From a virus, in IMG/VR virus record IMGVR_UViG_3300032085_001020, positions 1 through 32,717 of that record: DNA of 32,717 bases. One strand, written 5' to 3'. The notes beneath the pieces are model-generated. The model was given only the letters and a program-made list of their open reading frames with translations, did no database searches and had not been told where the DNA came from. Position 1 is the stretch's first letter. Every line of letters begins with the position of its first letter. The translations under genes were made by a program, and so were the position numbers. This document shows positions 14,829-31,827 of this stretch, piece by piece.

Positions 14829-15050
14829 ATGAAGGAAGTCGTAACAATGGTCAAAGGATATATTGATGATTTAGCTCATCTACTTATGTCCTTTGTAGCT
14901 ATAGGTGCCATTTCTGAAGTAATATTTGGAAGCGGTATCTTTGGCGTCAACGTTATAGGTAACCTAACATCCATCATTAACAAGTTCGGCGAGTCGGGTT
15001 TCGCTGGGCTTGTCGCCTTGTTGGTGTTGGTGGGTTTATTTCGAAAGTAG
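14829..15050 (+). CDS. Small hydrophobic membrane protein, only plus-strand gene
   Basis: This is a 73-aa protein with a strong GGGAGA ribosome binding site 6 bases before the ATG. It has an N-terminal amphipathic part (MKEVVTMVKGYIDDLAHLLM), a hydrophobic Gly-rich middle (FVAIGAISEVIFGSGIFGVN), a short polar linker (LTSIINKFGESG) and a C-terminal membrane segment (FAGLVALLVLVGLFRK) ending in basic residues. Two helices are likely. It is a single-gene unit flanked by two terminators and faces away from both neighbouring operons. A holin-like or membrane-remodelling role, or a small virion membrane component, would fit the size and topology; neither is proven. A second Met (MVKGY) is possible, but the ribosome binding site favours the first. 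Confidence 0.8.
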   Translation: MKEVVTMVKGYIDDLAHLLMSFVAIGAISEVIFGSGIFGVNVIGNLTSIINKFGESGFAGLVALLVLVGLFRK

Positions 15051-17420: not shown

Positions 17421-18602
17421 TTAGAAAAATTTATTTTCAATTGTTTCATTTTCACTTTTAACATTACTTAATCTTTTAAATAAAGGTTTGTACTTTTCAA
17501 ATACATCTCTTGGTTTATCACTTTTTACCATATCATCAATAGACTGTAATAACTCATACATATCATTCGACAATATTTGTTTCTTAATATAATCGTGACT
17601 ATAAACATAGTACTCAGCTTTCTCAATAGCTTCTTTAAATACCATAAAATTATGAAGTCGTATAGCCATAGTACATTGACCTTTCCATTCTACAGTATCA
17701 TCCCAAGTTAATGCTTCTCTTAAATATTCTCTATCAAACTCAGTAGTTACTGGTAGATGTTTGAATACTTGGTCTTTAAATGAATCATCATACTTAGGTA
17801 CATTTATTGAACGAAATGCTGGTTTCTTAAAATCATAACTATGATAATAAGAACCAAAAACAACAGCTCTATCTGGTGATGAACTATCAGTAGTAACAAT
17901 TATTTTTGAGTCAACTTCATTTAAAGATTTTTGTAATTGATTTAACATTAAGAAATCTTTAACTTTAGATATACCTAAAATATGAAAATATTTGTTTGTA
18001 TCTTTTAGATGTTCTCCACCTTGTAATAATGACATTACACCTGACATAAAAGCAAATACATTTCTACCACCACCACCGACAGCCCAACCTTGAAATGGAT
18101 AGTCTTTCATTTCATTATACCAGTTTATATATTCAAGGTCATTTGTACCCTGTACTACATTTAAAAAATCAGTATTACCAGATTGATTATCTGCAAAGTA
18201 TTTAAAATTGTCTTTACTAATCTTTAAACACTCTTCATACATACCTTCGTATTTTATCTTAGGTGGAATATCTAAGTTCATTGCTATATCTGAATTGTGT
18301 TCTAACCATTTAAAGATTCTTTCACGTATGGACATATCCCATTTGATAGCACCAGATGCAATTTGGTAACCACCTGAATCACCCATAACAAGATTTTTAT
18401 CTGTTAATCCTAAATCATTTTTATAGTCATCTTTTTTAAAATGATGTCCAGCTGTAATCAATATATCTGTATGTCTGTATTTTTCTGGAAACTCATCACT
18501 ATAAAATCTTATAGATAAATCATTTTTTAATTTAACATTCTTAGCTAATGAACTACCCATAGCACCTGCAGAGAATGATGGAAAGTATATAAATTTACTC
18601 AT
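17421..18602 (-). CDS. dpdA: DpdA-like 7-deazaguanine DNA transglycosylase
   Basis: This is a 393-aa TGT-like enzyme. Recognised motifs are DSGGYQ (Asp75, general acid/base), DIPP (111-114), VVQG (149-152), GWAVGGGG (172-179, base-binding loop), HILGIS (208-213) and TDSSSPDR (Asp239, nucleophile). The Cys-rich zinc site of bacterial tRNA-guanine transglycosylase (CxCxxC...H) is absent. In known phages, DpdA exchanges guanine in DNA for preQ0 or a derivative, shielding it from host nucleases. It is preceded by queD, queE, queC and folE in the same operon, which supports action on DNA rather than tRNA. The start overlaps the phosphoribosyltransferase stop by 4 bases (ATGA). Confidence 0.85.
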   Translation of the reverse strand: MSKFIYFPSFSAGAMGSSLAKNVKLKNDLSIRFYSDEFPEKYRHTDILITAGHHFKKDDYKNDLGLTDKNLVMGDSGGYQIASGAIKWDMSIRERIFKWLEHNSDIAMNLDIPPKIKYEGMYEECLKISKDNFKYFADNQSGNTDFLNVVQGTNDLEYINWYNEMKDYPFQGWAVGGGGRNVFAFMSGVMSLLQGGEHLKDTNKYFHILGISKVKDFLMLNQLQKSLNEVDSKIIVTTDSSSPDRAVVFGSYYHSYDFKKPAFRSINVPKYDDSFKDQVFKHLPVTTEFDREYLREALTWDDTVEWKGQCTMAIRLHNFMVFKEAIEKAEYYVYSHDYIKKQILSNDMYELLQSIDDMVKSDKPRDVFEKYKPLFKRLSNVKSENETIENKFF

Positions 18603-19009
18603 TTTAAATAGTCCTGTATTTCTTGTGAGTTTTCAGTTTCCCAAGGATAAACAATCCATTTATCACCCTTTTCAACAACTGAAAAATCTGGTTTAACAAT
18701 ACTTTGTTCGTGTTCGTGAATTGTTACGTAAAAACTTTTTTCTGATAGAGAATGTTTTTTATATTTTTTTAATGTTTCACCTGTATCAGCTATATCATCT
18801 ATAATCAGAGTATCTTGTGTAACTTTTTCAAAACTCTCGATATAAGGTATACCTGTTTTGTGACTTAACATTACAGCTAGTATCACACCACCTCTTGGTA
18901 TACCATAGATGTTATTAAATTCAACACCTGCGTGTCTAATAGTCTCGATATAGTGTGATATATCATCTACGTATCTTTCTATAGCTTTCCAACTTACAAA
19001 TTCTTTCAT
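18599..19009 (-). CDS. Phosphoribosyltransferase in the 7-deazaguanine operon
   Basis: This is a 136-aa type I phosphoribosyltransferase. The PRPP-binding loop is DTLIIDDIADTGETL (about residues 66-80), and an earlier IYGIPRGGVILAVML (34-48) resembles the purine/xanthine phosphoribosyltransferase core. Such enzymes join a free base to PRPP. Between folE and dpdA, a likely role is to recycle the guanine base released by the transglycosylase into GMP/GTP, which also feeds FolE. This is inference; a xanthine-guanine or other base substrate cannot be read from sequence. Starts and stops overlap neighbours by 4 bases on both sides. Confidence 0.78.
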   Translation of the reverse strand: MKEFVSWKAIERYVDDISHYIETIRHAGVEFNNIYGIPRGGVILAVMLSHKTGIPYIESFEKVTQDTLIIDDIADTGETLKKYKKHSLSEKSFYVTIHEHEQSIVKPDFSVVEKGDKWIVYPWETENSQEIQDYLK

Positions 19010-19635
19010 TTTAAATCCCTTATAAAGTTATAAAATTCTTCTTTTGCTCTTGCAGTTTTTTTAAATGCCCCACTCAACTTAGATGTCTTCATAGTAGCAT
19101 TGTGTTTGACACCACGAATAAATGCACACATATGGTTAGCCTCTACCATCACAGCAGTACCAATATTTTGTTCACATACTCCATCTATATGACTGTGAAT
19201 TTGCATTGTTAAGTTCTCTTGTACTTGAGGTCGTCTAGCATAAAACTCAACAATACGATTTAACTTACTTAGTCCTATCACTTTACCCTCAGGTGTAGGT
19301 AGATAAGCTACGTGAGCATGTCCTGTAAAAGGTAAATGATGATGTGAACAAAATGAATGTAGTTTTATGTTACCTTGAAAAACCATACCATCATACCCAT
19401 CAACATTATCAAATGCTGTAATCTTAGGAGGTTCATTATACACACCTGAAGCTAAGTCATTGACAAAAGCTTTAGTCACTCTCATCGGTGTGTCTGAAGA
19501 ATTAGGGTCACTTTCCCAATCAAATCCAAGAGCTGTCATATAACGACCGTAGTGTTTTGCAGCCTCGTTTATCATATTTAATTTTTCATCTACATTTAAT
19601 GGTCTATTACCATTTGCATGTTTTAATTTATTCAT
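19006..19635 (-). CDS. folE: GTP cyclohydrolase I
   Basis: This is a 209-aa FolE of normal length. The zinc ligands fall at Cys96, His99 (KLHSFCSHHHLPF) and Cys170 (NHMCAFIRGV). Other hallmarks are HVAYLPTPEGKVIGLSKLNR (108-127) and RRPQVQENLTMQI (134-146). It opens GTP to 7,8-dihydroneopterin triphosphate, the first step toward preQ0. It stands between queC (8-base overlap) and the phosphoribosyltransferase (ATGA overlap). A host may already have folE; having its own copy raises flux into the DNA-modification pathway. Confidence 0.94.
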   Translation of the reverse strand: MNKLKHANGNRPLNVDEKLNMINEAAKHYGRYMTALGFDWESDPNSSDTPMRVTKAFVNDLASGVYNEPPKITAFDNVDGYDGMVFQGNIKLHSFCSHHHLPFTGHAHVAYLPTPEGKVIGLSKLNRIVEFYARRPQVQENLTMQIHSHIDGVCEQNIGTAVMVEANHMCAFIRGVKHNATMKTSKLSGAFKKTARAKEEFYNFIRDLK

Positions 19636-20353
19636 ATTCTATTGTGTCCTTAACTTTTAGTTTTTTGAAAGCTAACATCCTATCATTACACGCTCCACAT
19701 TTACCACAAGACTTACCTGACTTAGATGGGTTATAGCAAGATAAACTATTTTTAAATATTGTTTCGTGATTTAAACCTAAGTTGTCACAACACTCAAGAG
19801 CATCTTTGACAATTAAATGTTTGTATCCATCTACATAAGGTAAGTAATAATTAATTTTATCTGATTCTACATTACCTTCTTTGAATGCACTTTCTAGTTT
19901 TTCAAAAAATATACGAGTAGAGTCTGGTGGTATAGTATGTTCACCGTCGTGTACACCTAATGCAATATCTACAGATACATTTTTTTCTTTTACTAATGAT
20001 ACTGCATAACCGTAAATCAAACTTGAAAATATAGCATTTCTATTTGGTACAAAATTTGATTTCATTTTAGTTTCATCAGTTTTACCTGTTGGAACATATA
20101 TACCGTCACTTGTCAATGATGAATTAAATTTACCCATAAAACTTGATAAGTTCATATAAGTGTGATGTATATTAAAGTTTTTTGATTTCAAATATTTTAA
20201 ATTAGCTTCTAACTTAGTTAACTCTAATTGATTTTTTTGACCATAATAAAAACTAACTACGTGAACTCTATCATAATCTTTGTTTAATAGATGTACTAAT
20301 AATGATGTAGAATCTAATCCACCACTAATACTTAGCACTGCCTCTTTATTCAT
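19628..20353 (-). CDS. queC: 7-cyano-7-deazaguanine (preQ0) synthase
   Basis: I place the start at 20353 (MNKEAVLSISGGLDSTS), giving 241 aa, because GGAG lies 6 bases before this ATG. A longer frame from 20383 adds 10 residues without a good site. SGGLDS (9-14) is the ATP-PPi loop, and VPNRNAIFSSL is a typical QueC motif. The C-terminal zinc site is present (CYNPSKSGKSCGKCGACNDR). QueC converts 7-carboxy-7-deazaguanine to preQ0 with ATP and ammonia. No glutamine amidotransferase domain is fused to it, so formation of the archaeosine-type product seen with gat-QueC is not supported. Confidence 0.93.
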   Translation of the reverse strand: MNKEAVLSISGGLDSTSLLVHLLNKDYDRVHVVSFYYGQKNQLELTKLEANLKYLKSKNFNIHHTYMNLSSFMGKFNSSLTSDGIYVPTGKTDETKMKSNFVPNRNAIFSSLIYGYAVSLVKEKNVSVDIALGVHDGEHTIPPDSTRIFFEKLESAFKEGNVESDKINYYLPYVDGYKHLIVKDALECCDNLGLNHETIFKNSLSCYNPSKSGKSCGKCGACNDRMLAFKKLKVKDTIEYE

Positions 20354-20567
20354 CTTTACTCCATTGTTTATAACCATATACATTCATACCTAATACAAAT
20401 ACACTTACTGCAATTTGTGGTATTGCATTTATTAAATAACTGTAAACTAAAAATACTATGTTACCTAAACCCCAAACAATAAAACACATTTTATATTTTT
20501 GTGCGTTGAGATAATAACCTAACATAATTAATACAGTACCTAACCAACCTATTGTTTCAACAATCAC
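20346..20567 (-). CDS. Small three-helix membrane protein inside the que operon
   Basis: This is a 73-aa protein with three hydrophobic segments (about 3-19, 27-45 and 47-67) and a charged C-terminus (WSKDE). It contains WGLGNIVFLVYSY and PQIAVSVFVLGMNVYGY, features that resemble short three-helix proteins of the PnuC/CBU_0592 or SemiSWEET kind. Its overlap with queE (one base) and queC (8 bases) shows it is made with the pathway. A transporter or sensor for a pathway base or precursor is possible. It is much shorter than the known QueT or YhhQ transporters, so it cannot be assigned to them. Confidence 0.7.
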   Translation of the reverse strand: MIVETIGWLGTVLIMLGYYLNAQKYKMCFIVWGLGNIVFLVYSYLINAIPQIAVSVFVLGMNVYGYKQWSKDE

Positions 20568-21322
20568 TAAACACCTCTTTCATCTCCATAAGCTAATATG
20601 TGTAATCTGTCTGTAAAGTTATAACCTTGTTGAGTACATATATCCATTAACCACTTACGTCTTTCATTCAACTGTTTACGTTCTAAACCTTCAGGCATCA
20701 ACCATACTTTATTATTTGGTATGAACAATTTTTGTTGTAACATCTTCACTTCTTCTAAATCTTTTTCACTTGATATGACTGGTTTTAATTGATAGTCTGG
20801 ATGAACATCAAGTAACATTGCCATAGCATCGTAATTACAACGCCACTTTTCGTGTTTCTTTTTATCACCCTCAGTAACTACTTTACCAGTGTAAGTCATT
20901 ACAGTACCAGGTCTTGGAGTACTATTCGATAACTTAGGTGATAATGAAATCATATCAGCTTCAGTATTTACATACTCACTACCCTCAGTTTCTATTGTTA
21001 TGTAACTGTCATAGAGTTTACCTATCTTACAAAGTTCTTGTAACATCTCAGCGTGTATTGTAGGACCTCCACCAGTAATCATAGTGTGTTTTATATGTGA
21101 GTGTTTTTGATAGAACTCATGCACATCATCATATGTAAATCTACCTTTTTCAGGTTTCCAAGAGCTATATGGTGTATCACAAAACGAATCAGCAAACTGA
21201 CAACGTAATCTACAACCACTTACACGAATCAAGATATGAGGTATTCCCATAAGTTTACCTTCACCTTGTAGGCAAGTATACATTTCATTTATAGGGAGTT
21301 TTTTATCTGACATATTCTGCAT
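20567..21322 (-). CDS. queE: 7-carboxy-7-deazaguanine synthase (radical SAM), unusual cysteine spacing
   Basis: This is a 251-aa QueE-like protein. The opening (PINEMYTCLQGEGKLMGIPH) and HILIRVSGCRLRC are standard for the family, but the radical-SAM cysteines are at 37, 41 and 48: CX3CX6C rather than the usual CX3CX2C, with a four-residue insertion (ADSF) before CDTPYSSW. A later MITGGGPTIHAEML is the usual GGEP-like segment, here GGGP. It converts 6-carboxytetrahydropterin to 7-carboxy-7-deazaguanine using SAM and an iron-sulfur cluster. It overlaps queD by 20 bases. An alternative start is the Met at 21313. The spacing change does not exclude activity. Confidence 0.85.
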   Translation of the reverse strand: MQNMSDKKLPINEMYTCLQGEGKLMGIPHILIRVSGCRLRCQFADSFCDTPYSSWKPEKGRFTYDDVHEFYQKHSHIKHTMITGGGPTIHAEMLQELCKIGKLYDSYITIETEGSEYVNTEADMISLSPKLSNSTPRPGTVMTYTGKVVTEGDKKKHEKWRCNYDAMAMLLDVHPDYQLKPVISSEKDLEEVKMLQQKLFIPNNKVWLMPEGLERKQLNERRKWLMDICTQQGYNFTDRLHILAYGDERGV

Positions 21323-21746
21323 GATTGTTTTCGTGTTCCCAAACCTCTACTCGTGTAATCTCAACACGATTATTTGTTTTCTCTTTTATCATTGGATTTA
21401 ATTTGTCATATAGATAACGACAGGACTCTTCAATACCAGGATAGTAACCATCATCAAGTACATTAAGATATATACCACCTTTACTTTCTAGTTCTTTTAA
21501 ATCAGATAGTAAAGGGTCATCAGCAGCAATCAAGACTCTATGGTCCCACTCTGATTCAATCCACTTCTTAACATCTTTTAAGTCACCGAAGTCCATAACC
21601 CACCCTCGTTCATCAAGTTCTGAAGCTTCAAATGTTAAACGAACATATCTACCGTAACCGTGAACATAAGAGCAATGACCTTTATCTCGCCATTGTCTGT
21701 GACCTGTTGTGATAGGTCCAAATCGTTTAGTTGATTTGAATTTCAT
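21303..21746 (-). CDS. queD: 6-carboxy-5,6,7,8-tetrahydropterin synthase-like protein with altered zinc site
   Basis: This is a 147-aa protein of the PTPS/QueD fold. Motifs seen are FGPITTGHRQW (His16), KGHCSYVHGYGRYVRL (Cys25 catalytic, His29), VMDFGDLK (50-57), EWDHRVL (66-72) and PGIEES. The usual motif CxxxHGH, which supplies two of three zinc ligands, here reads CSYVHGY, so the third ligand is Tyr31. It would turn dihydroneopterin triphosphate into 6-carboxytetrahydropterin. It heads the operon, directly after the promoter at 21784-21812. The neighbours make the assignment firm even though one ligand is changed. Confidence 0.85.
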   Translation of the reverse strand: MKFKSTKRFGPITTGHRQWRDKGHCSYVHGYGRYVRLTFEASELDERGWVMDFGDLKDVKKWIESEWDHRVLIAADDPLLSDLKELESKGGIYLNVLDDGYYPGIEESCRYLYDKLNPMIKEKTNNRVEITRVEVWEHENNHAEYVR

Positions 21747-22364: not shown

Positions 22365-22401
22365 CTACAGTTTTGTAAAACAATACTTTTTTATTTTATT
22401 G

Positions 22402-22808
22402 TGGAGCTGGCGGGAATCGAACCCGCGTCCAAATGTTTTCTCGATAAAGTCATTTACAGCTTAGTTAGGTTCCAAATACAGTAGTTACCTACAACCCACT
22501 ATGGTCAGTTTACAGATTGACGACTGAAGATATTTAAACTCTATCTCACGAGTTAGTGTCTAACTTTTTTTATGACCGAGTGTTAGACAACTCAGTAACT
22601 TACGCGTAAACGTGAGTTGGTTGAGAAGTACGAGCTGGTTCAACAAAAGTATCGAACATCATCTCAGAATTAGCTAGATGCCAATCCACTTTCAACCCGT
22701 GTAGCGATTCTTCGCCATTTGAGTTTGGTGAGTTTTTTGTAACGAGACCTACTCAATCTCTGCTGCACTTTATTTTCAAATAACATCTGTCGAAACCTTG
22801 TCAGCCCC
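22402..22808 (-). ncRNA. ssrA: tmRNA (transfer-messenger RNA)
   Basis: The 407-nt minus-strand RNA has both diagnostic ends: 5' GGGGCTGACAAGGTTTCGACAG and 3' GGACGCGGGTTCGAATCCCG ending CCAGCTCCA. The acceptor stem GGGGCTG/CAGCTCC has the G3-U70 alanine identity pair. CCA is not encoded. One pseudoknot is clear, with ACTGAGT/ACTCGGT and GTCTAAC/GTTAGAC interleaved just after the tag stop. The tag ends PARTSQPTHVYA before TAA at 22592-22594. The resume codon is uncertain: GCU gives 24 residues starting ANSEMMFD, while a GGC 12 bases after the likely first pseudoknot would give 38. It would rescue stalled ribosomes during infection. Confidence 0.93.
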
Positions 22809-27390: not shown

Positions 27391-27924
27391 TTATAATAAT
27401 TCAATAATTTTTTGTACGGTATTATCATCCGTTTTGATTGTATGATAATCTATATTATTATCATCTAATGTTTTGATACAATGTTTATCTATTTTGATTG
27501 AATCCTCTAAGTTCTGAAATCTCTCAGCGTCATTATGATTTGTTTCTGGTCGTTCCAACATTACATTTATATTATCATAATTGTTATGTAAATCTATTAC
27601 CATTTGATTAAAGGCTTCTGAATAGAACTCGGCTGGATAACCTTCACTATACCACGTCTTATATATTAATGAGAATAAGACTGGTGAATCTACAACAATG
27701 TAATCAACCTTACCATAACTTTCCGCTATACCTCTGTGTTGATTAGCACATACATAGAGTTGGTCTTTTATAGCTGGTAGATTATTATCCCAAGCTAGTC
27801 TTTTTGGAAACTCGTATGGATTATTACAACTTATATGTTTTCTTTTGAGTTCGTAAAAAACTCCCGCGGCTATGGAGGACTTTCCAATACCAGGCCCTCC
27901 AAATAAATTTATCAATTTACTCAT
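27391..27924 (-). CDS. P-loop NTPase/kinase-like protein
   Basis: I place the start at 27924 (MSKLINLFGGPGIGKSSIAA), giving 177 aa; the ATG overlaps the stop of the 72-aa gene (ATGA). GGPGIGKSS (9-17) is a Walker A loop and DYIVVDSPVLFSLIY (about 78-92) a Walker B-type segment. These features and the short length place it with phage AAA/P-loop kinases that may phosphorylate small substrates or act as adaptors; the substrate is not clear. A longer frame starting at 27957 would add 11 residues within the upstream gene. Confidence 0.78.
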   Translation of the reverse strand: MSKLINLFGGPGIGKSSIAAGVFYELKRKHISCNNPYEFPKRLAWDNNLPAIKDQLYVCANQHRGIAESYGKVDYIVVDSPVLFSLIYKTWYSEGYPAEFYSEAFNQMVIDLHNNYDNINVMLERPETNHNDAERFQNLEDSIKIDKHCIKTLDDNNIDYHTIKTDDNTVQKIIELL

Positions 27925-28139
27925 AGTGATTGATATAAACTGAATAAATAACCACAAAATCCTACTATGTTAAGTAAGGATAAATTATATTGTTTGGTTT
28001 TTTGAGTTTGAATAGTAAGTAGAGCTAAACCAATTAACATCCCTATCTTTCCTATATGTGAATTTATAAAGTAAGGTGATAACATCATAATGGCTGTACC
28101 AAGATATATCACTCCATATTTATATAATTTTTCGTTCAT
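27921..28139 (-). CDS. 72-aa membrane protein
   Basis: The protein has hydrophobic segments at about 8-24, 30-44 and 52-68 (VIYLGTAIMMLSPYFINS, IGMLIGLALLTIQ, LLNIVGFCGYLFSLYQSL), with a charged loop (TQKTKQYN) between the last two. The general form resembles the 73-aa protein at 20346-20567 (a hydrophobic three-part layout, short loops), but clear sequence similarity is not visible. A ribosome binding site CGGAG lies just downstream of the TonB-receptor terminator. It is coupled to the P-loop gene. Confidence 0.7.
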   Translation of the reverse strand: MNEKLYKYGVIYLGTAIMMLSPYFINSHIGKIGMLIGLALLTIQTQKTKQYNLSLLNIVGFCGYLFSLYQSL

Positions 28140-28151
28140 TTTATACTCCGT

Positions 28152-28177
28152 AAAAAGGGGGGAAATTAATCCCCCCT
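28152..28177 (-). terminator. Strong intrinsic terminator after the TonB-dependent receptor gene
   Basis: On the minus strand, GGGGGG (171-176) pairs with CCCCCC (157-162) around an 8-base loop, followed by a run of T residues (152-156). It is the strongest terminator in the window and isolates the receptor gene from the P-loop cluster. Confidence 0.92.
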
Positions 28178-28187
28178 AAAATTACTT

Positions 28188-30905
28188 TTAGAAATTAACA
28201 GTCAACCCAATGTTAGCATAACGTGGTGTTCCTAAGAATACCTCAGCGTTATGTGGTAGGTGAAGTTTATCACCGTATCCATTATACTGTGAGTTGTCAA
28301 CTGCATCTTGTACATAAACTGCATCGAGTGCGTTGAATACGTGACCCGTTAGTGTCATATCGTATCCTGCAATCTTAGGTAGTTTATAAGAAGCATGTAA
28401 GTCTAAACGATTATATCCTGGAGCTTGCCATACTTGAGTTCTATCTGCATCACCAGAAAGTTCACGTGAGTCTGGACTCCAATCTGCGTAGTTCTTATCA
28501 TACATCTTAAAGATACCTTGCAATCTAAGACCGTCCATAGGTGTAAGTGTTGTACCTAAGACATAAGCTGTTTGTGGTTGGTCACCTACATATAATCCAT
28601 CAAGTGTGTATGTGTAAGGTGTTTGTACTGGTGCGTCTTCAGCATACTCTGTATAAAGACCATCTGCATCACCATCAAACTTCCACTTACCAAATGATAC
28701 TGCTCCGTCTAAACGAATCATATCATTTAACTTCATTGAACCTTCGATTTCAAGACCTTGGTGTTTTTGACCGATACCTTTTAAGAATATCACATCAGTA
28801 TCACCTGAGTCACCTTGTCCAGTAGTTACAGCTTTTGTAAGGTTTCTATCTTTCCAATCTGTATTGTAAGCACTTACTTTAACTGCTACATTCTCAGTAG
28901 AGAAATTAATACCAGCCTCTGAACTAATGAATGATTCATTAGATGGGTCTGATGCAACTGTACCATCATAGTAGATTACGTTATCCATAATCGGTGGTTT
29001 CTCAACGTATCCTGTGTTAGCAAATACACTAACATTATCGTCTACGTCATACATAGCTCCACCCTTAACTTGGAAAGTCGAGATAGCGTCTGCTTTAACT
29101 ACTTCGTTAGCTACTGTAAAGTGGTCTTGGTAAGAATACTTGATACTTGATAATCCACCCATACCATATAGGTTAATCTTATCTTTAGTATATTTACCTT
29201 GTAAGAATCCACCAATCCAATCAACTGTGGTACTATTATGATATGCGATGATATCACCTAGTCCCTTCATTTTACTTTCGTTAGTTGTGTTATTCTTATT
29301 AGATGAGTTAACAAAGTAATCTCCACCTAATAAATCACGAACTTCACGAGCGTGTTCTATACCAGCAGTTCTCCAATCTAAACCAACTTGAACTTCAAGT
29401 TCGTCTGATACGTTATAGTTTAATTTAGAAATCAAACCGTAAGTATCTTGTCTATTGATTGAGTTACGAAGAATACCTTTTGAACGATTCTGAGTTGCAT
29501 GGTAATCAGTATCTACGTTATTGGAGTTAGCTGCAATAGCACCATTCCAATCCCAAGTCCACGGGGAACTTCTATACCACTTTTCACCATCTACAGCAGG
29601 AGTTCTGAAAGAACTACCATAAGTTCCTGTACCACCACCTGAACCACCACTCCAATAAAGAACTGAACTCAAACGAGTTTTTTCATTTATTGTCATAAAG
29701 TGATTTAGATTAACCAATGGTTTATGAAAGAAGTTTTCTCTTTCATTTAGGAAGTTAGAGTTATATCTAGCAGTTGTTCTTGCTCCATACATATACCAAT
29801 ACTGTTTACCTGTATAGTCTGAACTAACGGGTGCCCAATTTTGACTAAATGTACGACCAGCTTCTGTTTCGAATTTATTACCCTCTGCAAATGCATCAGT
29901 ATCATATCCGTCAATACTACCTGCTAACTCTTGTGAGTAAGTAGCAATATTCTGTTTGTATAGATTCTGTCCGTGACGTTGTGGAGCTCCGATTGCATAT
30001 AATTCAAATCTGTTCTTTTTATTTAATTGATATGAACTACCTAAATACCAAGCCCAAGCGTCTGTCCAGTTTCCATCAATAATACCATCACCAGTCTTAC
30101 GAACTAACGTTCCACTAAGTGCTAGTTTATCACCAATCAAACCTGTATTGTAATTAACAGTAGTTTTAAGAAAACCACCAGCACCACCTTCTTGTTTGAA
30201 CTTTCCACCTTTTGTCATTGCCGCAGGGTCGGTGATTATGTTCATGGTTCCACCAATTGATGGTGTAGCTAAGTTAACAGCACTTAAACCACGTTGCATC
30301 TGAATTGATTGAGCTGCATCTGCAACACCATCCCAATTAGACCAATATACCCAACCATTCTCCATATCATTTTGGGGAACACCGTTAATCATTACAGCCA
30401 CATTACGTTGGTTAAATCCACGAACATTGATACGAGCATCACCCGCACCACCACCTTGTTGAGTCGCATATACACTTGGTGTAGTGTTTAGAGCCATTGG
30501 AATATCTTGACTACCAAGACGAATTTCCATATCTTCTTTACTAACCGTTGTGTATGCAACAGGTGTTTTTTCATCTGCCCTTGAAGCTAAAACCTCAAGT
30601 GCCGACATTGTAAGAGCATCAATTGCCAAAGCAAAATCAACCTTTACATCTTCTCCACCCATAACAACCTCTTGAGATTGAGATGAGTAACCAATGAATG
30701 TAACTGTAACAGTATAAGTACCAGAATCAAGTTTAATAGAGTAGAAGCCGCTTTCATCGGCTACTGCTCCCAAGTCTGTTCCATTTACTACTACATTTGC
30801 TCCACTCAAAGGATTTGTGTCGGCATCAGTTACGAGTCCAGTTATAGATTGTGCAAACAATCCACTAACCATCATAAGTGATACCATTAGATTACGTATA
30901 TTCAT
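28188..30905 (-). CDS. TonB-dependent outer-membrane receptor with N-terminal regulatory-like domain
   Basis: This is a complete 905-aa receptor. Residues 1-18 are a signal peptide (MNIRNLMVSLMMVSGLFA), then a carboxypeptidase-regulatory-like beta domain (about 20-95: ITGLVTDADTNPLSGANVVV, later GTYTVTVTFIGYSSQ). The plug follows (about 115-225), with INVRGFNQRNVAVMINGVPQ and LATPSIGGTMNIITDP. The remaining 680 residues look like the 22-strand barrel and end in Phe (NIGLTVNF), the outer-membrane insertion signal. Such receptors import siderophores, vitamins or glycans using TonB. No SusD partner, TonB gene or promoter is seen. The GC content looks higher than that of neighbours, suggesting a recent host origin. 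It has its own ribosome binding site (AGGGAGA) and terminator. Confidence 0.95.
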   Translation of the reverse strand: MNIRNLMVSLMMVSGLFAQSITGLVTDADTNPLSGANVVVNGTDLGAVADESGFYSIKLDSGTYTVTVTFIGYSSQSQEVVMGGEDVKVDFALAIDALTMSALEVLASRADEKTPVAYTTVSKEDMEIRLGSQDIPMALNTTPSVYATQQGGGAGDARINVRGFNQRNVAVMINGVPQNDMENGWVYWSNWDGVADAAQSIQMQRGLSAVNLATPSIGGTMNIITDPAAMTKGGKFKQEGGAGGFLKTTVNYNTGLIGDKLALSGTLVRKTGDGIIDGNWTDAWAWYLGSSYQLNKKNRFELYAIGAPQRHGQNLYKQNIATYSQELAGSIDGYDTDAFAEGNKFETEAGRTFSQNWAPVSSDYTGKQYWYMYGARTTARYNSNFLNERENFFHKPLVNLNHFMTINEKTRLSSVLYWSGGSGGGTGTYGSSFRTPAVDGEKWYRSSPWTWDWNGAIAANSNNVDTDYHATQNRSKGILRNSINRQDTYGLISKLNYNVSDELEVQVGLDWRTAGIEHAREVRDLLGGDYFVNSSNKNNTTNESKMKGLGDIIAYHNSTTVDWIGGFLQGKYTKDKINLYGMGGLSSIKYSYQDHFTVANEVVKADAISTFQVKGGAMYDVDDNVSVFANTGYVEKPPIMDNVIYYDGTVASDPSNESFISSEAGINFSTENVAVKVSAYNTDWKDRNLTKAVTTGQGDSGDTDVIFLKGIGQKHQGLEIEGSMKLNDMIRLDGAVSFGKWKFDGDADGLYTEYAEDAPVQTPYTYTLDGLYVGDQPQTAYVLGTTLTPMDGLRLQGIFKMYDKNYADWSPDSRELSGDADRTQVWQAPGYNRLDLHASYKLPKIAGYDMTLTGHVFNALDAVYVQDAVDNSQYNGYGDKLHLPHNAEVFLGTPRYANIGLTVNF

Positions 30906-30933
30906 TTACGTTCTCCCTTGTTTTTTATTTAAA

Positions 30934-30957
30934 GACACATTTTTATTCAGGTGTGTC
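30934..30957. repeat. 6-bp hairpin in the leader of the TonB-dependent receptor gene
   Basis: GACACA (934-939) and TGTGTC (952-957) pair around a 12-base loop, 29 bases upstream of the receptor ATG. There is no T-run of the usual length on the minus strand. It might act as a weak terminator for the upstream gene or as a 5' regulatory stem. No clear promoter was found in this 79-base gap. Confidence 0.45.
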
Positions 30958-30984
30958 GACTGCCTGTTTGAGGTATGCGAAATT

Positions 30985-31827
30985 TTATCGACCAACCCTA
31001 CCACCTTTACCTATCGAAGAATCAATTTTTTGTTCTATGATTGGTAGGTCATCTGGGTTTGGTACTATATCTTCTTTTATTAAATCTAATTTTTTTGCAA
31101 TCTTTGGTAAAACTTTTATTGTATCACCATCATCCTCTAGTACTCTATTATAAGCTATAACTAAAGCAATTGCCATCGGGTCGAATACGAATATAAGAAT
31201 GAATATAAAAAACTTTACAACTGTATCTACGTCTGTATCGAATACCTTAGCCAAATAAATAGCGGGTCCCACATCAACACCTGTCTCTACCAACTCAACC
31301 TTTAAATCACCTATCTCACCTTTGAGTGTCATCATATCGGTATTGATTTGATTTATCTTTGGTTGATACTCTTCTCTTAATTGTCTTTTTGCTGTTCTAT
31401 AATTGTCTGGTAGTTCTGCGACTGCAGCTTCTAATTCTTCTTTTAAAAATCCTTTATCTTCAGTAAGTTGTTCTAACCTATCCTCTTTATATAATAAAGC
31501 TGTAGATTGTTTTTCAAAGTTAACAGTTGCACCTTGATATGCATTTGATAAATAACCAAATATACCAGCAGATGTTATACCAACTAAAGTAACAACACCA
31601 ACTGTCATATAGATTTTTAATAACTTATTTATTTTATTCCAGTAACGATATAAAAAAGATGCTCCGACTAGTTTACCAAACTCAAGTGAACCAGCCATAA
31701 TAATTACAGATAAAGCTGCACCTGAAAATAATTTTGATAAGCCAAATACACTAAAGAATGCAGCACTCCCTGCAATCAGAAGAGCAGACAAACCAACATA
31801 TGTTTTAAAGTTTTTTACTCGTTCCAT
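30985..31827 (-). CDS. Membrane protein with four helices and a central coiled coil
   Basis: This is a 280-aa protein. Three membrane helices occur at about 9-30, 35-57 and 71-93 (with KIYMTVGVVTLVGITSAGIF), then a long soluble helical region 104-182 (EQLTEDKGFLKEELEAAVAE, then QINTDMMTLKGEIGDLKVEL), and a fourth helix at about 204-226 (FFIFILIFVFDPMAIALVIA). It resembles DUF4407-like phage membrane proteins by layout only. A role in the inner membrane, perhaps superinfection exclusion or receptor-channel control, is possible. It precedes the TonB-dependent receptor by 79 bases. A TATATTTATAG motif sits 3 bases before the ATG. Confidence 0.78.
   Translation of the reverse strand: MERVKNFKTYVGLSALLIAGSAAFFSVFGLSKLFSGAALSVIIMAGSLEFGKLVGASFLYRYWNKINKLLKIYMTVGVVTLVGITSAGIFGYLSNAYQGATVNFEKQSTALLYKEDRLEQLTEDKGFLKEELEAAVAELPDNYRTAKRQLREEYQPKINQINTDMMTLKGEIGDLKVELVETGVDVGPAIYLAKVFDTDVDTVVKFFIFILIFVFDPMAIALVIAYNRVLEDDGDTIKVLPKIAKKLDLIKEDIVPNPDDLPIIEQKIDSSIGKGGRVGR

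Follow-up and report, generated by a model that had tools for sequence, protein, structure and literature searches.

A TonB-dependent receptor gene among the replication genes of uncultured T4-like phages, probably a retained outer-membrane importer

Why would a phage encode an outer-membrane receptor? TonB-dependent receptors (TBDRs) are common phage receptors, and a gene for one lies on the minus strand of the stretch of DNA analysed here (the window), the 32,717-nt IMG/VR virus record IMGVR_UViG_3300032085_001020, a genome fragment that also carries T4-type baseplate wedge genes. The answer that we favour, and hold to be fairly probable, is that the gene encodes a retained, captured importer of a scarce nutrient that is used during phage DNA replication.

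The receptor gene has the following parts.

28188–30905, minus strand: TBDR gene, 905 amino acids (aa), ATG to TAA, zero internal stops, C-terminus ...GLTVNF
30849–30905, minus strand: signal peptide, residues 1–19 (by eye; helix 3–15 in the structure model)
30603–30845, minus strand: N-terminal CarboxypepD_reg-like extension, residues 21–101 (Pfam CarbopepD_reg_2, 5.4e-18)
30246–30572, minus strand: TonB plug domain, residues 112–220 (Pfam PF07715, 5.5e-15, above the curated cut-off)
28191–30221, minus strand: β-barrel, about residues 229–905 (structure model; ends in Phe)

An initial annotation made from the letters of the window had called the gene intact, and the uninterrupted open reading frame (ORF), with its plug and its barrel ending in Phe, bears this out. 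The Pfam barrel model gave no match to the protein at E up to 0.01, and the barrel is seen in an AlphaFold2 model built from 94 sequences (pLDDT 85.9, pTM 0.81), which comprises plug and barrel; an earlier model, for which 27 sequences were used, was of low quality (pLDDT 54). The better model matches PqqU in Foldseek (1.6e-42), has a Z of 31.0 over 621 residues with PqqU in a VIA comparison, tied with 30.4 for BtuB, and aligns with PqqU, FhuA, FecA and BtuB through plug and barrel up to residue 905. Judged by this model, with its plug and plug-closed barrel, the protein belongs to the TonB-dependent transporters. The fold was discarded as a guide to the substrate, with PqqU, BtuB, FecA and FhuA tying. 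Membership of the SusC/RagA family (TIGR04056) is not indicated, at 61.9 bits against a cut-off of 368.25. PHROG 5687, a group of phage proteins of function not known, matches the plug and the start of the barrel (E 1.4e-14).

The receptor is widespread among uncultured phages. A scan of IMG/VR viral contigs returned 325 stretches, of which 318 encode TBDR relatives; neighbourhoods were counted in the best 80, which are 70–100% identical to the window TBDR and in 79 of which the match reaches the C-terminus, the exception (L029) being cut. Deposited phage records gave 14 matches, all below 31% identity and two covering at least 80% of the query, and no close copy was found on plasmids (30 records matched, all below 60% identity). 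Of the 78 loci in which an upstream ORF could be read, 74 have a class II (B12-dependent) ribonucleotide reductase (RNR) immediately before the TBDR, the class being assigned by PF17975 and PF21995 in two RNRs tested; a DNA polymerase comes immediately after the TBDR in 46 of the 78 loci with a downstream ORF. Most of the 80 loci share the order SSB, UvsX, exonuclease, DnaB-like helicase, RNR, TBDR, DNA polymerase, clamp and clamp loader (order from clustering of neighbouring ORFs, functions annotated on representatives L003 and L004). Because its usual place is between RNR and DNA polymerase, the TBDR is probably transcribed with the replication genes.

The window represents a second genomic site, in which the TBDR follows a 280-aa gene near a gene for Hsp20. 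Its immediate neighbours are as follows.

30985–31827, minus strand: 280-aa gene upstream of the TBDR (membrane-like segments by eye), in the place held by the RNR in most relatives
27391–27957, minus strand: dTMP-kinase-like AAA gene downstream of the TBDR (domain matches)

The 280-aa gene is upstream of the TBDR in six other contigs, directly in L002, L009 and L012 and within 1.5 kb in L294, L311 and L326. This recurrence answers the assembly doubt raised at the outset, and it supplies the gene at the same locus in related phages that had been called for; the receptor is truly on a phage. The search of three window-type records, all of them fragments, turned up no RNR. In L006, L011 and L045 the upstream side is that of the RNR type and the downstream genes are of the window type, and relatives of the dTMP-kinase-like gene sit between TBDR and DNA polymerase in the RNR-type loci L018, L020, L021 and L024.

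The distribution of the gene was followed with a second scan, anchored on the helicase instead of the TBDR. Among the best 80 of 213 loci, 21 carry the TBDR, 18 have RNR followed by polymerase without it and 41 are too short to class, two of these (L209 and L264) also having the polymerase right after the RNR. The empty sites are clean, and the same RNR is present in the relatives that have no TBDR. Of the 14 empty sites inspected, most have the RNR stop abutting or near a promoter-like TTGAC...TATATT ahead of the polymerase; in most of the 18 TBDR-positive loci inspected, the cassette lies between the RNR and a similar stretch. On a helicase tree of 65 distinct sequences from 88 loci (68 with and 20 without the TBDR), a quick tree with long branches, TBDR state needs five parsimony changes, two of them forced by well-supported branches. 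No TBDR was found elsewhere in the 20 negative records, which are fragments. The RNR C-terminus often differs by state, ending in ..GDNDDQEYAN in TBDR-positive and ..CEIPGEEIKST in TBDR-negative phages; L246 is without the TBDR yet has the tail typical of TBDR-positive phages, and this retained tail suggests that it lost the receptor.

The nearest cellular genes are TBDRs of Marinimicrobia (SAR406, Fidelibacterota), 67–69% identical to the window protein end to end. In a quick tree of 93 rows, 41 viral TBDRs (what dereplication left of the 79 full-length viral rows plus the window) form one clade among those of Marinimicrobia (SH-aLRT 100, midpoint root); the tree leaves out L029, L099, L147 and L150 as short, L135–L161 as not chosen, and viral near-copies of at least 92%. 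The sole intruder in the viral clade, L082, is a 4.3-kb contig of a metagenome-assembled genome with two tandem TBDRs, the first of which falls inside the clade; no RNR or polymerase match was found on it. The gene was apparently captured, most simply once, from a Marinimicrobia-like bacterium, and the bacterial origin claimed at the outset is upheld by this nesting.

The claim that the capture was fairly recent does not hold. The 41 viral TBDRs have a mean identity of 74% (lowest pair 64%), form a single clade but for one intruder and match other phage genes in third-position GC. Although GC of the whole gene is 38.3% against 31.9% for the window, its third-position GC, 0.235, falls within the range of 0.116–0.248 spanned by the rest of the genes in the window (one end-cut, out-of-frame ORF not counted), and the GC argument for a recent origin therefore fails. 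The value lies at the upper end of that range, near Hsp20 (0.241) and QueE (0.238), the baseplate-region genes having 0.12–0.17. Means are 0.238 for viral TBDRs, 0.215 for their RNR and 0.231 for their polymerase, and 18 of 19 Marinimicrobia copies are higher.

On the TBDR phylogeny alone, Marinimicrobia are a candidate host. Two other routes to the host were tried and dropped: the phage DNA polymerase has a match in only 1 of 149 Marinimicrobia genomes, and a weak one (best 33% identity), and the tag of the phage transfer-messenger RNA (tmRNA) is unlike the nine-residue Marinimicrobia tags (ADYGYMAAA and kin) among those listed by ARAGORN. The tmRNA itself lies at 22399–22808 (minus strand) of the window and at 14899–15303 of L045, full length in both (RF00023, 111 and 82 bits); in the window it has an Rfam match and no ARAGORN call, and its tag, read by eye, is unusually long.

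Does the viral receptor still look like a transporter? Between the window and four close relatives, the ratio of nonsynonymous to synonymous substitution rates (dN/dS) is 0.12–0.15 overall, 0.00–0.04 in the plug, 0.13–0.15 in the extracellular loops (borders taken from the structure model) and 0.39–0.49 in the N-terminal extension; five further viral pairs give 0.04–0.16 overall, the closest of them carrying few changes. Mean pairwise identity among the 41 viral TBDRs is 0.90 in the plug and TonB-box region, where viral and host proteins share 0.89, and 0.75 in the strands, 0.77 in the extracellular loops and 0.52 in the N-terminal extension. No position in any region, loops included, is fixed differently between viral and host TBDRs under the cut-offs used. 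These comparisons indicate strong purifying selection on the viral TBDRs and, within the mature protein, the weakest constraint on the N-terminal extension. Because the plug and TonB-box region is the most conserved and no position is virus-specific, they point to retained transport and not to a mask or a diversifying surface; among the roles put forward in the initial annotation, nutrient uptake thus fits best, and the fit is poorer for a masked receptor, a decoy or an accident. With an apparent cellular origin, accessory presence in the phage group and signs of selection, the TBDR can be classed, by sequence criteria, as an auxiliary metabolic gene.

The same data bear on superinfection exclusion or receptor replacement, in which the phage would install its own version of the receptor that it or its rivals use, so that later phages bind poorly. 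That TBDRs so often serve as phage receptors speaks for it, as do the accessory nature of the gene, with its five state changes on the helicase tree, and the existence of a phage lipoprotein that blocks FhuA (structure 8a60, which we take to be Llp–FhuA, is among the Foldseek matches listed). The porin of phage PA-2 and Llp of phage T5 serve exclusion, and the TBDR resembles them as a phage product acting at the outer membrane; unlike in these, its transport features are conserved. A mask has no need of a plug and TonB box, the loops show no diversification and, under the cut-offs used, no position fixed differently from the host copies, and the usual place of the gene is among replication genes. 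We therefore regard exclusion as improbable, although it is the strongest of the rival accounts.

The importer reading that we prefer would run as follows. An ancestor of this T4-like phage group would have taken the gene from a Marinimicrobia-like bacterium. The gene is kept in the group as a cassette of predicted pseudoknot leader, receptor and, usually, terminator, normally placed just after the class II RNR and before the DNA polymerase. Made alongside the replication proteins, the receptor would be secreted to the outer membrane and powered by the host's TonB, supplementing the intake of a scarce small molecule during phage DNA synthesis.

The other parts of the cassette flank the receptor gene.

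30912–30919, minus strand: TBDR ribosome binding site AAGGGAGA (sequence)
30934–30966, minus strand: predicted H-type RNA pseudoknot in the TBDR 5′ untranslated region, 33 nt (stem 1 CAGG/CCTG, stem 2 GACACA/TGTGTC, A-rich loop)
28148–28176, minus strand: intrinsic terminator downstream of the TBDR (hairpin GGGGGG...CCCCC and T tail)

The ribosome binding site and terminator of its own that had been ascribed to the gene are thus both found, as AAGGGAGA and a T-tailed hairpin. In the viral loci, CAGG-N5-GACACA-CCTG-(A-rich 8)-TGTGTC, or some variant of this sequence, stands between the upstream stop and the TBDR start. A strict scan finds the pseudoknot in 73 of 80 loci; the remaining seven comprise one cut at a contig end, four with TAGG/CCTA, one with a longer loop and one with mismatches. 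Over 33 distinct sequences, taken from a motif search that fixed the columns GG, CACC and AAAAA and did not require pairing, 99.4% of 330 cells are standard pairs against 90.9% in shuffles, and 28 cells are changed on both sides against 6.8, values that none of 500 shuffles reached. Pairs with two-sided changes number five against 2.9 (reached in 10 of 500), and further pair types show no excess (7 against 6.9). The shuffles take no account of relatedness, and leader variants of other length (L025, L035 and L077) were left out of the count. In slid registers, 19–51% of positions pair.

The element is tied to this receptor. A collection-wide pattern search found at least 119 stretches, 92 of which were read; the TBDR comes next in all 84 with enough sequence (eight were too short), and upstream lies the RNR in 87, the window-type gene in four and a contig end in one. 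None of the Marinimicrobia TBDRs inspected has the pseudoknot ahead of it, and the pattern is absent from 199 Marinimicrobia genomes with one mismatch allowed. Rfam gave no match at the leader in the window and six relatives, and its sole hit on the leader region alone was RF00522, which scored 13 bits (E 3.6) where the gathering score is 39. We predict from the two interleaved, covarying helices that the leader is a phage-specific H-type pseudoknot RNA, which probably tunes translation or mRNA fate of the TBDR gene alone; a DNA operator of two overlapping palindromes is less likely. That it is a new phage-specific class of riboswitch, sensing the imported compound so that a vitamin or cofactor importer is built only when the infected cell runs short, is a doubtful possibility. 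Short H-type pseudoknots in 5′ leaders are also found in T4 gene 32 and in the preQ1-I and SAM-II riboswitches; the TBDR leader has other stem lengths than these, no Rfam match and a tie to one transporter gene.

At the other end of the cassette, 65 of 79 viral loci have a GC-rich hairpin and a T tract after the TBDR; among the remaining 14, a hairpin can be made out by eye in 11. In L059, L060 and L061, a tRNA gene lies directly downstream of the TBDR, at the usual place of the terminator (Rfam for L059).

What the receptor imports can be approached through its cellular relatives. An ENPP-type nucleotide pyrophosphatase (NPP; PF01663 in one tested, PDB match to ENPP1 at 6.5e-83) is next downstream of the TBDR in 17 of 66 assessable cellular loci, from several phyla of the Fibrobacterota–Chlorobiota–Bacteroidota (FCB) group. 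In L148, a flavin mononucleotide (FMN) riboswitch is followed on one strand by ribD-ribE-ribBA-ribH-TBDR-NPP, presumably one operon and the one cellular locus in which rib genes are linked to the family, and in L141 an FMN riboswitch precedes two tandem TBDRs (the first 29% and the other 45% identical to the window protein) and then an NPP. In three cellular loci, the gene adjoining the TBDR upstream encodes a class B acid phosphatase or one of its distant relatives. Since the cellular family is tied to NPP and, in two genomes, to an FMN riboswitch, we tentatively suggest that it may take up flavin or nucleotide-type compounds, our leading guess, though one that we rate below an even chance. 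In several Marinimicrobia genomes the TBDR is near dnaG, and in L084 its neighbours are dnaG, yqeY and cvpA.

Several observations weigh against the importer reading or its suggested substrate. The TBDR is absent from 20 close loci, and a pure surface role may be compatible with the sequence. The terminator is no phage hallmark, since 19 of 19 host loci also pass the loose test applied to the viral ones, and in a promoter scan of the TBDR region none of 10 sites (12.8 in shuffles) stands out. The NPP-linked cellular TBDRs are only 45–51% identical to the window protein, and an FMN riboswitch is near a family TBDR in only two of 61 cellular loci scanned with Rfam. NPP occurs in 16 of 21 Marinimicrobia genomes, but among their TBDR loci only in L090, where it is not adjacent; no NPP turned up among 266 viral loci or in the window, and rib genes were not found in the viral loci either. 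ThyX, an enzyme that uses flavin adenine dinucleotide, is present in 9 of 18 RNR-type TBDR-positive fragments, neither of two window-type records (the window and that of L002) and two of six TBDR-negative fragments, and its presence does not discriminate between the two states.

A more specific proposal, that the receptor imports cobalamin for the adjacent B12-dependent RNR, draws on the 74 of 78 loci with that RNR directly upstream, on a model that resembles BtuB as well as PqqU, and on two Saprospiraceae loci in which a family TBDR has a cobalamin riboswitch immediately downstream, followed in L126 by a further TBDR and in L139 by a DUF4465 gene. Scans of 61 cellular loci, 58 of which extend for 300 nt or more upstream of the TBDR, found no such riboswitch ahead of a family TBDR. 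In Marinimicrobia, 17 of 22 genomes have exactly one cobalamin riboswitch match each, and no close family member is among the ORFs within about 1.5 kb of these; eight of the 17 are followed on the same strand by a distant TBDR-like ORF (20–26% identity, over the N-terminal and plug region only). A family TBDR under a cobalamin riboswitch, as would mark a BtuB, was accordingly not seen in the source phylum, where the riboswitch adjoins other ORFs. The retention of the same RNR by TBDR-negative relatives also counts against the proposal, which we consider more improbable still than exclusion.

A passenger carried by chance, or a decoy titrating phages or bacteriocins from lysed debris, would agree with the accessory presence of the gene but is very unlikely in view of strong purifying selection (dN/dS 0.04–0.16 in nine pairs), a dedicated conserved leader RNA, a position in the replication operon and the many contigs involved; with relatives on 318 viral stretches, the accidental pick-up once proposed is not tenable. 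An assembly chimera or host contamination in IMG/VR, which the fragmentary window and the lack of a close copy in the phage-record collection might suggest, is rejected for the TBDR family and retains a negligible probability: the window-type arrangement recurs in six other contigs and the RNR type in tens of contigs, and none of the 23 cellular loci compared (L082–L104) contains the main phage clusters that flank the gene.

Some further features of these genomes were observed. The TBDR of L012 is near-identical to that of the window over the first about 120 residues and clearly less so beyond (86% overall), a pattern that indicates recombination inside the gene. The RNR of L053, L255 and L257 is apparently split by inserted sequence, as is the helicase of L053; the insertions are perhaps introns or inteins. 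The window also encodes a 7-deazaguanine set (17421–21746, minus strand) of FolE, QueC, QueE, QueD and a weakly TGT-like protein, perhaps DpdA-like, and the set perhaps serves DNA modification. A manA RNA motif (RF01745, 64 bits) is present in the relative L030 at 794–995.

Marine phages carry auxiliary metabolic genes for nutrient supply, such as pstS and cobS. Like these, the TBDR gene is a host-derived accessory gene that likely raises the supply of a limiting nutrient; unlike them, it encodes an outer-membrane importer, not an enzyme or periplasmic binding protein. The Marinimicrobia TBDRs are its end-to-end relatives but have a chromosomal setting and, in those inspected, no pseudoknot leader. 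Putative phage-encoded TBDRs have a precedent in the SusC-like proteins of marine and other megaphages, proposed in one report to raise carbohydrate uptake during infection (PMC9723777). LR745206, named in that report, and LR756501–503 are 26–30% identical to the window TBDR over 15–25%, around the plug. In contrast to the megaphage receptors, those considered here belong to T4-like phages and form one conserved family with a fixed operon place, a leader RNA and tested selection. Among the matches listed, literature searches returned no paper on a TBDR family beside RNR or on the leader pseudoknot. What is new is a candidate RNA element without an Rfam match; a phage-borne nutrient-supply gene is already known in kind.

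With a conserved TonB-dependent importer in its replication operon, a phage of this many-membered, uncultured group may remodel outer-membrane uptake of its host while copying its DNA, a possible link between nutrient scarcity, probably marine, and phage replication. The phylogeny makes Marinimicrobia a candidate host group for phages without isolates, and the gene neighbourhoods offer a lead to the substrate of a TBDR family that spans several FCB phyla. If the riboswitch reading were true, the cassette would be a virus-encoded, RNA-controlled outer-membrane nutrient circuit tied to the supply of DNA precursors.

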